Source: a bacterium
Lineage (GTDB): Bacteria; CSSED10-310; JAJRTK01
Length of the DNA stretch: 14,991 nt
Assembly (NCBI GenBank): GCA_024278345.1
Contig: JAJRTK010000337.1
Coordinates: 1-14,991 of the forward strand
Direction: 5' to 3'
The notes under the pieces are model-generated. The model had not been told where the DNA came from. It saw only the letters and a list, made by a program, of their open reading frames with translations, and made no database searches. The stretch's first letter is position 1; every line of letters begins with the position of its first letter. Both the position numbers and the translations under genes were made by a program. This document shows positions 1 to 14,743 of the stretch, one piece after another.

Positions 1-218
1 CAGGGCGAAGTCCTGCCAGGGGACGGGGGACAGCGTCCCCGGACGACCGCCGGGTAACGCGAGGCGTGACCCGCCGAGCGGAGCGCGGCGCTGCCCGATG
101 CCAATTTTTTTTCCGCGACCCATTGTCCCGCTTTGCGTGGATACCCGAGCAGGGCGCAAGTCTTGGGGGAAAGTCGGTTTTGGTTCGTCTTGAGGGCTTT
201 GAGCGTGGGTCCAGGGTG
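1..218. other. Left-edge region without a clear gene; hairpins and a T8 tract
   Basis: No convincing complete gene is visible. Plus-strand hairpins are seen at 26-40 (GGGGAC, loop AGC, GTCCCC), at 51-73 (a nine-pair stem with one A/G mismatch closed by a GAG triloop) and at 72-90 (CGCCG, 9-nt loop, CGGCG). A run of eight T follows at 105-112. This could be the 3' end of a structured RNA or of a gene entering from the left: one plus frame is open from base 1 to a TAA at 55-57, exactly where the 51-73 hairpin sits. The T run lies about 14 nt after the last stem, which is too far for a textbook terminator. I compared the stretch mentally with RNase P RNA, tmRNA and SRP RNA and found no convincing match. 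Confidence 0.3.
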
Positions 219-275
219 ATGAAGGGCGAGTGGCGGCGGACGGATTGCCGCCGGCGCGAGCGGACCTCAACTCTA
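215..275 (+). repeat. Dispersed hairpin element, copy A
   Basis: This is one of three copies of an approximately 60-bp intergenic element. Its core, GCGGCGGACGGATTGCCGCC, matches the copy near 13530 exactly, and similarity continues through GCGAGCGGA and CAACT to an A-rich tail. The core folds as CGGCGG, 8-nt loop, CCGCCG. Read as codons from the ATG at 219, it gives MKGEWRRTDCRRRER, related to the frames in the other two copies. Here the second Cys is Arg, one extra codon is present and the frame has no early stop, so this copy looks degenerate as a coding unit. It lies beyond the 3' end of parC. Confidence 0.65.
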
Positions 276-318
276 AGAAAACGAAGCCATCGACGATCAT
301 CATGCCCTGGAAAGGTTC

Positions 319-337
319 CGGATGGTCATGTCATCCG
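319..337 (-). terminator. Possible weak hairpin downstream of parC
   Basis: CGGATG (319-324) and CATCCG (332-337) form a 6-bp stem with a 7-nt loop about 50 nt past the parC stop. There is no T run after it in the parC direction, so intrinsic termination is doubtful. A Rho-dependent end or simple chance symmetry are equally possible. Confidence 0.2.
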
Positions 338-7774: not shown

Positions 7775-7850
7775 AATCAGTTACTTTTTTGGGGTTGTGT
7801 TCCACTCACATCGGCGGCAGTCCGTCCGCAGCTGCTCGCCCATCGTCACC
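7775..7850 (-). repeat. Dispersed hairpin element, copy C (inverted)
   Basis: On the minus strand this spacer matches copies A and B: GATGGGCGAGCAGC, then CGGACGGACTGCCGCCGATG, then GAG.GGAA, CACAAC and an A-rich end. One base change weakens the hairpin to five of six pairs. From the ATG at 7843 a 20-codon frame reads MGEQLRTDCRRCEWN and ends in TAA at 7781. It lies between the ispA-like gene and the peptidase gene. Nothing else is recognisable in the 7718-7948 gap, and there is no obvious terminator after the ispA-like gene. Confidence 0.6.
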
Positions 7851-7948
7851 CCCACGCCCAATCGGCGGGCCAACCAGCGAAGGATTACCGAAAACTGCCG
7901 CCCCATCGGCCCAAGCCGCGCCAGCCGGCCCGGTTCATGCCATCAGTC

Positions 7949-13455: not shown

Positions 13456-13514
13456 AATTCGGTCGGGTGGTGGTTCGGTGGGACTCCGTTTTCAGGCAAC
13501 GGATGGGGAAAGGG

Positions 13515-13583
13515 GCGTGATGGGGGAGCAGCGGCGGACGGATTGCCGCCGATGCGAGCGGAAGGCAACTTTATGAGGAAAAA
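13515..13583 (+). repeat. Dispersed hairpin element, copy B
   Basis: This copy shares the GCGGCGGACGGATTGCCGCC core with copy A and GAGCAGC plus GCCGATG with copy C. The hairpin is perfect at six pairs (CGGCGG/CCGCCG). From the ATG at 13520 an 18-codon frame, MGEQRRTDCRRCERKATL, closes with TGA at 13574-13576, with AGGGG about 4 nt upstream as a possible ribosome binding site. It lies between the promoter of the beta-propeller gene and the aroB stop. The rest of the 13365-13588 gap shows no gene. Confidence 0.65.
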
Positions 13584-13588
13584 TGTTT

Positions 13589-14743
13589 TCATGTCCATTC
13601 CTTTTCGTGGCGTTTTGGCGTGGGAAGGCCCGTCCGCTGGTGCTCCGTCGTGGGAAGACCCATCCGCTCTCCGAGGACCGCGTGCGCCGCCAGGATCTCC
13701 GGCGCCTCCACCTCCACCAGCTCTGGTCGCCCGAAACTCCGGAGGAGTACGAACCGGATCCGGCCGCCGAGCCGCTTTTTGTCCTGGAGCATTTTTTCCA
13801 TGAGCGCCTCGGGCTCCAGCAGATTCCAGGCCTCCACCGGCCGAAGCCCGCGCACCAGCCTCTCCATGCGCATGCTCTCCCTAGCACCTATCCACCCGCG
13901 CATCTCCGAAAGGATCGCCGCGTACCAGATCCCGATTCCCACCGCCTCGCCGTGGAGCAACCGGCTCTCCGTCGCCCCCGTCCGATCCTCCAGCGCGTGG
14001 CCCAGGGTATGTCCAAGGTTCAGAAAGGCCCGCCGCCCCGCCTCCCGCTCGTCCGCCGCCACGAAGAGCGCCTCGCTGCGGATGGATTGGGCCACGGCCC
14101 GAGTCAGCGCCTCGGGATTTCCCCTGGCCAGGGCCGCGAAATCCCTCTCCAGTTCGCGCACCGCGGCGTCACCCGTCAGCAGGGCATGCTTGAGATGCTC
14201 GAACAGGCCTGAAACCATCTGCCGCCGATCCAGAGTCGCCAGGAAGCCGGTGTCGGACAGAACGGCCCTGGGCTGGTAGAAGGCCCCAATGAGGTTTTTC
14301 CCCGGTCCCCGGTTTACGGCCACCTTGCCGCCCACCGCCGCGTCCACTTGGGCCAGAAGGGTCGTGGGTACGTTGATCCAGGCGACTCCCCGAAGATAGG
14401 TGGCCGCCACAAAGCCGCCCAGGTCCCCCGTTACGCCACCGCCCACCGTCACCACGACGGCCTGCCGGGGAACCTTCAGCTCGATGAGCCGATCTTGGAG
14501 TCTTGCGAATTCCCGGAGACTTTTAGAGGCTTCACCTGGCGGGATGACCAGGATGTTGTCGGGCTCGACGGCCTTTTCGATCCAGGAGTGATGCAGACGA
14601 AGGACATTTTCATCGACGATGGCGATTCTGGGCCGCCAATCTTTCGCCGCGGCTGGGAATCTTTCCAGGGCGCCGGCCCCAGCATAAACGGTGTAGCCTC
14701 GTTTTCCAAGGTCAACGGCGATTTCTTCGATTTCTTGGGACAT
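13589..14743 (-). CDS. aroB: 3-dehydroquinate synthase
   Basis: The 384-residue cytoplasmic enzyme converts 3-deoxy-arabino-heptulosonate 7-phosphate to 3-dehydroquinate, step two of the shikimate pathway, using NAD and a divalent metal. NAD-binding GGGVTGDLGGFVAATYLRGV spans 101-120; VPTTLLAQVDAAVGGKVAVN (125-144) and KNLIGAFYQP are intact. Metal ligands fit Glu182 in SGLFEHLKHA, His245 in LNLGHTLGHALE and His264 in HGEAVGIG; Lys185, Asn242 and His249 are also kept. SGLFEHLKHA departs from the usual SGMAEVIKYG but keeps Glu and Lys. The last 25 residues, including GLPTTEHQRTGLPTPKR, are an extension created by a 30-bp tandem duplication. The start at 14743 gives a normal N-terminus; no strong ribosome binding site is visible. 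No other aro gene is next to it. Confidence 0.95.
   Translation of the reverse strand: MSQEIEEIAVDLGKRGYTVYAGAGALERFPAAAKDWRPRIAIVDENVLRLHHSWIEKAVEPDNILVIPPGEASKSLREFARLQDRLIELKVPRQAVVVTVGGGVTGDLGGFVAATYLRGVAWINVPTTLLAQVDAAVGGKVAVNRGPGKNLIGAFYQPRAVLSDTGFLATLDRRQMVSGLFEHLKHALLTGDAAVRELERDFAALARGNPEALTRAVAQSIRSEALFVAADEREAGRRAFLNLGHTLGHALEDRTGATESRLLHGEAVGIGIWYAAILSEMRGWIGARESMRMERLVRGLRPVEAWNLLEPEALMEKMLQDKKRLGGRIRFVLLRSFGRPELVEVEAPEILAAHAVLGERMGLPTTEHQRTGLPTPKRHEKEWT
13619..13668. repeat. Short tandem duplication in the 3' end of aroB
   Basis: CGTGGGAAGGCCCGTCCGCT (13619-13638) recurs at 13649-13668 with two G-to-A differences, a 30-bp period. Because 30 is a multiple of three, the reading frame is kept and the protein tail repeats GLPT twice, ten residues apart. 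It lies beyond the conserved fold, so it is probably harmless slippage. Confidence 0.6.

Follow-up and report, generated by a model that had tools for sequence, protein, structure and literature searches.

What are the three similar hairpin repeats that lie between genes in this 14,991-nucleotide stretch (the window, which is the entire contig C267 of a 6.06-Mb genome in 550 contigs), and what keeps their fold? In a repeat search of the window, 206-278 paired directly with 13504-13576 (77% over 73 nt), 214-280 was 78% alike to inverted 7785-7851, and 7794-7844 was 86% alike to inverted 13519-13569. The likeness among the three repeats (77-86% over 51-73 nt) is far above chance, and an nhmmer profile built from 111 window-type copies matched all of them (copies A, B and C by position; E = 3e-35, 1.9e-21 and 6e-25). 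The preliminary description had given coordinates for the cores only; recognisable similarity covers 170-319, 7776-7896 and 13475-13599. The 20-bp identical core reported there, GCGGCGGACGGATTGCCGCC, exists, but at 233-252 and 13531-13550, not in the first and second copies, and it is the middle copy (7799-7840, minus strand), not the third, that is inverted and more diverged. All three hairpin cores are clear of predicted genes, as had been claimed. The features are as follows.

176..325, plus strand: copy A, element remnant of ~150 bp (profile match 170-319, E = 3e-35)
176-197, plus strand: remnant of the 5' terminal inverted repeat (TIR) of copy A, GGTTTTGGTTCGTCTTGAGGGC (TIR consensus GGTgGTGntncGntTTngGGGC...TGCCCTgnAgGaGtncCAcnaCC)
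304-325, plus strand: remnant of the 3' TIR of copy A, GCCCTGGAAAGGTTCCGGATGG (same consensus)
225..266, plus strand: hairpin core of copy A, GGCGAGTGGCG-(stem, loop)-GCGAGCGGACC (alignment, covariation; covariance model match C267:207-292, 1.5e-20)
7776..7889, minus strand: copy B, element remnant with its 5' end at 7889, GGTAATCC... (profile match 7896-7776, E = 1.9e-21)
7799..7840, minus strand: hairpin core of copy B, GGCGAGCAGCTGCGGACGGACTGCCGCCGATGTGAGTGGAAC (alignment; covariance model match C267:7773-7858, 4.0e-19)
13477..13599, plus strand: copy C, element remnant (profile match 13475-13599, envelope to 13618, E = 6e-25)
13477, plus strand: remnant of the 5' TIR of copy C, GGTGGGACTCCGTTTTCAGGCA (profile match of copy C)
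13523..13564, plus strand: hairpin core of copy C, GGGGAGCAGCGGCGGACGGATTGCCGCCGATGCGAGCGGAAG (alignment; covariance model match C267:13505-13590, 1.1e-18)

The outermost few bases of copy A were set by eye from the TIR consensus. The 8 bp flanking copy A on its two sides do not match, so its target site duplication (TSD) is not preserved, and no target duplication is visible at the window copies. In the profile alignment no 3' TIR of copy B was recognisable past 7776. From 13589 on, the 3' part of copy C coincides with the end of aroB; the overlap of the aroB 3' end with the expected 3' part of the element spans 13589-13620, and the element may have supplied the final residues of AroB. A tandem duplication of 30 bp follows at 13608-13667. 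An Rfam scan of the window placed no family over the three repeats, its sole match being one tRNA elsewhere. The window also holds other repeats: at the contig edge, about 38-100 (within 38-148), is a different high-copy family, GCGTGACCC...CCGAGC, and 121-148 belongs to another, like ATTGTCCCGCCTTGCGTGGATACCC, with 71 occurrences at up to 2 mismatches in 0.8 Mb.

To define the size of the family, 80 contigs picked at even intervals (0.80 Mb) were searched as an unbiased sample. A DNA profile matched 113 places, compared with 0 in the reversed control, and a covariance model trained on 85 copies gave ~110 matches at about E<1e-3, which extrapolates to ~830 (roughly 800) copies genome-wide. Across the 6.06-Mb genome, 322 sites match the core with no more than 3 mismatches, against 2 for the reversed pattern. 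The family is therefore one of hundreds of copies, as the preliminary description had supposed, and not of these three alone. Its intergenic restriction is also borne out: 81% of the sampled sequence is coding, yet just 11 of 111 copies lay within coding sequences as predicted by a simple gene caller based on codons. The element carries no gene and is inserted in either orientation, with a nearly neutral relation to neighbouring genes (29 sense, 19 antisense, 18 divergent, 9 convergent). The covariance model found 0 copies in seven genomes of the same phylum, the nearest available for comparison. Exact-core matches in other genomes and relatives were set aside as chance, nearly all of them covering just 18-32 nt of the inner hairpin. 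At least 10 more repeat families are present in the sample.

We asked whether the hairpin is the whole repeat unit. It is the middle of a ~150-bp element, which in well-preserved copies reads GGTGGTGCTCCRGCCYTAGGGCA...hairpin...GCCCTAAAAGAAGAGCACGACC and in the window-type subfamily has the same layout between GGTgGTGntncGntTTngGGGC and TGCCCTgnAgGaGtncCAcnaCC. Intact copies have imperfect 22-bp TIRs, GGTSGTGCTC-N6-TAGGGC, starting GGTGGTGCTC-N6-TAGGGC and ending GCCCTA-N6-GAGCACSACC; in 33 full-length copies the distance from GGTGGTGCTC... to ...GAGCACSACC was 143-174 bp. The flanking octamers were identical at 8/8 positions in 9 of these 33 copies and at ≥7/8 in 13 (shuffled expectation for ≥7/8: mean 0.25, maximum 3 in 5000 shuffles), examples being AGGATTCC, CGAATCTG, CCTCTTTC and TGGTTCCC; in about half of the full-length set the flanks do not match. 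The matching octamers are transposition footprints. A 10-bp reading of the duplication was replaced by 8 bp plus an adjacent GG once more copies had been examined. When direct repeats were sought without restriction around every copy, no signal emerged, since the ends of most copies are gone. Short, non-coding, bounded by TIRs and an 8-bp TSD, and dispersed in mainly intergenic copies, the element is a MITE. An integron attC site was considered and dropped, the copies being dispersed and having target duplications. A strongly shortened copy at L254:100-150 consists of the two ends only (GGTGGCGCTCCGGCCTTAGGCCAGTAAAGCCCTAGACAAAGAACACGATCC). At L210 (minus strand, from 545) a different repeat family (GGCCTCGGTCATGGTACCGGCCAC) interrupts a copy past the left end, and nesting of repeats is frequent in this genome.

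The element ends suggested IS1, whose termini start GGT..TG. A search with PF03400 found three places, C58, C548 and C400, two of them above the cut-off; the C58 copy is degraded and below it. The IS1-type genes at C58 and C548 are decayed and 90% alike, and they end ...AATGCCCTAACCATGGAGCACCACC and ...AATGCCCTAACTATAGAGCACCACC, running into ...GCCCTAACCATGGAGCACCACC and ...GCCCTAACTATAGAGCACCACC, respectively. This terminal layout is that of the MITE ends except for the 6-nt spacer, and the C58 right end is identical to the two MITE ends at 18/22 and 16/22 positions. Within 1.32 Mb there are 30 instances of the pattern GGTGGTGCTY-N6-TAGGGC, of which 26 are MITE ends, 2 belong to the IS1 relics and 2 are others. 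No intact IS1 with two ends was seen (the left part at C58 runs off the contig, and C548 is cut at a contig end). The better preserved IS1 transposase at C400 has another end (GGTAGTCCTGATT, read from sequence). An IS1-family transposase gene at L249:1-360, open to its stop, 5' cut at the contig end and with terminus GGTAGTCCTGATT, is possibly a currently active IS1. An ISAs1 source was rejected, the transposase fragment at C373 ending CATGGCAATCGCATC, unlike the element TIR. Judged by the shared ends, the best candidate mover is an IS1-family transposase, and the preliminary suggestion of a family mobilised in trans is supported.

The preliminary description had proposed a REP-like family and a search for a RAYT/Y1 gene. 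Such a gene raises a different account, in which a REP/REPIN-type palindrome is moved as a single strand by the genome's RAYT (a Y1/HUH tyrosine transposase). One RAYT-like gene was indeed found (C390:22510-23232, L062:7511-8236; NF047646 E = 1.4e-18 but below cut-off, PF01797 E = 5.7e-7), with its stop codon falling in a diverged element copy (L062:8193-8278, 36.1 bits, E = 1.2e-9). The element resembles REPs further in being a high-copy intergenic hairpin with conserved mismatches. However, a stop codon within the element was seen in 8 of 521 sampled genes, so that this 3' overlap has a ~1.5% chance per gene. No copy lies directly 5' of the RAYT-like gene (the nearest is ~1.2 kb off), and the gene is not flanked by inverted copies, the one diverged copy being at its 3' end only. 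The gene also has its own internal GTAG palindrome, GTAGGGGCGGGTTCCGAACCCGCCCC, different from the element and nearly absent elsewhere in the genome. No GTAG tag is present at the element's hairpin feet, whose consensus is ATGAAAGGCGAG and GAGCGGAACGCAAC. A REP would be a 20-40 bp palindrome without target duplication; the element has ~150 bp, TIRs and 8-bp duplications, and HUH transposition is not known to make such duplications. We conclude that the target duplications together with the shared IS1 ends mostly refute movement by the RAYT, which we regard as very unlikely, and the REP-like assignment is not supported: the repeats are copies of a MITE with IS1-like ends. Two observations on the RAYT-like locus stand apart. 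Two in-frame copies of the GTAG palindrome encode a repeated peptide, AGSEPAPTQPDTTDR. Directly upstream of the gene (L062:7325-7490) is a copy of a second MITE-like family (~156 bp, TIR GGGACCTATCA...TGATAGGTCCC; also at L020, L155 and others), which contains a CACCGGCAAGATGCCGGTG palindrome that is a repeat family in its own right.

Next, selection on the hairpin was examined in an 85-row alignment made by MAFFT without structure information and in 66 distinct ungapped cores, on which pairing was counted. The hairpin has a conserved foot, near-invariant tandem G·A mismatches and a variable apical stem. Columns 8-31, 13-26 and 14-25 pair in 66, 61 and 64 of the 66 cores, against ~50, 34 and 35 expected, and in the same cores G4·A35 never varies and A5·G34 hardly ever does. 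In the 85-row alignment 98 cells were changed on two sides, compared with 44 after shuffling (0/500), and pairing was destroyed when the partner was slid. Kinship of copies inflates such pair counts, and a test of G·T against A·C was therefore added, in which a single transition in a Watson-Crick pair leaves a G·T or an A·C mismatch, as read on the element plus strand. Single changes gave 57 G·T and 3 A·C (22 vs 3 and 35 vs 0 by subfamily; the G·T counts include inherited subfamily variants, and independent events are fewer). At unpaired positions C>T (0.044) and G>A (0.033) were similar. The plus strand was the more stable strand in 66/66 cores. Among copies found by one end, the core was kept somewhat better than the other end, in small numbers. 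A second module, GGGGAACTCGCGCC-N-GGCGCGGGTC, occurs in the hairpin loop at L146:14462, L160:6750, L199, L201 and L267, making the element ~22 bp longer; it may be a nested insertion.

Because G·T exceeds A·C by 57 to 3 with similar unpaired transition rates, these sequence comparisons indicate that selection acts on the plus strand folded alone; the selected form of that strand is probably RNA. The covariation by itself would fit equally a process at the DNA level, in which templated quasi-palindrome repair (cruciform or replication slippage) keeps the pairs of this GC-rich palindrome with no selection on RNA. Such repair concerns the hairpin only and does not conflict with the MITE identity, but it should leave G·T equal to A·C on the plus strand, and the invariant tandem G·A mismatches have not been turned into Watson-Crick pairs; we consider it improbable. 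Strand-specific covariation and a conserved 3' tail, GGAACGCAACCCAAAG, could instead be read as marks of a host regulatory element or small RNA gene family (terminator, attenuator or RNA stability element) not spread by transposition. The nearly neutral gene orientation, an A-rich rather than T-rich sequence 3' of the hairpin, the TIRs and target duplications on full-length copies and the lack of an Rfam family at the window repeats all speak against a host element, to which we give the least credence of the accounts weighed here.

Taken together, each copy is, with a probability of roughly 80%, the remnant of a ~150-bp non-autonomous IS1-type MITE whose hairpin forms a module of its own. An IS1-family transposase, binding the ends, would have mobilised the element in trans, insertions within genes would have been purged, and the window copies would be old, their ends eroded and target duplications gone. 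In this central hairpin module, the fold would be preserved in single strands of just one polarity, most likely in read-through transcripts; RNA stability, processing or making insertions harmless are candidate roles. A more specific proposal, that the element owes its success to the hairpin as a functional module of RNA or single-strand DNA, is rather unlikely in our judgement. If true, active subfamilies in succession would have kept the strand fold, the tandem G·A foot and a C-GGAY-G cap while changing the apex, and the transcript or single strand would serve mobilisation or shield host transcripts from the insertion.

In kind the element is an ordinary MITE whose copy number is unusually high; it represents a new MITE family, marked by its IS1-type end and by a covarying hairpin in the interior. 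It is a clear case of REP-like hairpins as the surviving cores of MITEs, in a host lineage with almost no neighbouring genomes in the collection. The hundreds of copies make structural selection measurable, and the asymmetry of G·T and A·C, which reveals the selected strand, is applicable to bacterial MITEs whose RNA role is disputed.

The closest likeness is to IS1-family MITEs and transposons, with which the element shares the TIR start GGTnnTG, the 8-bp duplication and the terminal motif of the PF03400 relics. It differs from the IS1 relics of this genome in that just the terminal 22 bp are visibly common, the interior being unrelated, and no intact autonomous partner was seen. MITEs with stem-loops are well known (PMC2229807, PMC10969869); ERIC/IRU, Correia/NEMIS and RUP elements are, like this one, 100-200 bp long, gene-less, mostly intergenic and provided with TIRs, a TSD and stable stem-loops. 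In ERIC/Correia/RUP-type elements, however, the long stem comes mostly from the paired ends, whereas the element described here has an internal hairpin with a conserved foot and hypervariable apex. Old MITE copies without TIRs are known to resemble REPs, as in QMITE2, and up to 711 ERIC copies have been reported in one genome, that of Photorhabdus luminescens (PMC10969869), a number that the extrapolated ~830 copies here exceed. GTAG REPs with their RAYTs are likewise high-copy, intergenic, imperfect palindromes with conserved mismatches; the element lacks the GTAG tag, is far longer, has TIRs and a TSD, and sits in a genome whose RAYT has another palindrome (PMC2817692, PMC3733652). Caulobacter CIR elements, finally, are similar in that they are abundant, intergenic and ~110 bp long and have conserved arms of an internal stem-loop, but they carry GANTC in a loop (PMC2229807), and the element is not defined by such a motif.
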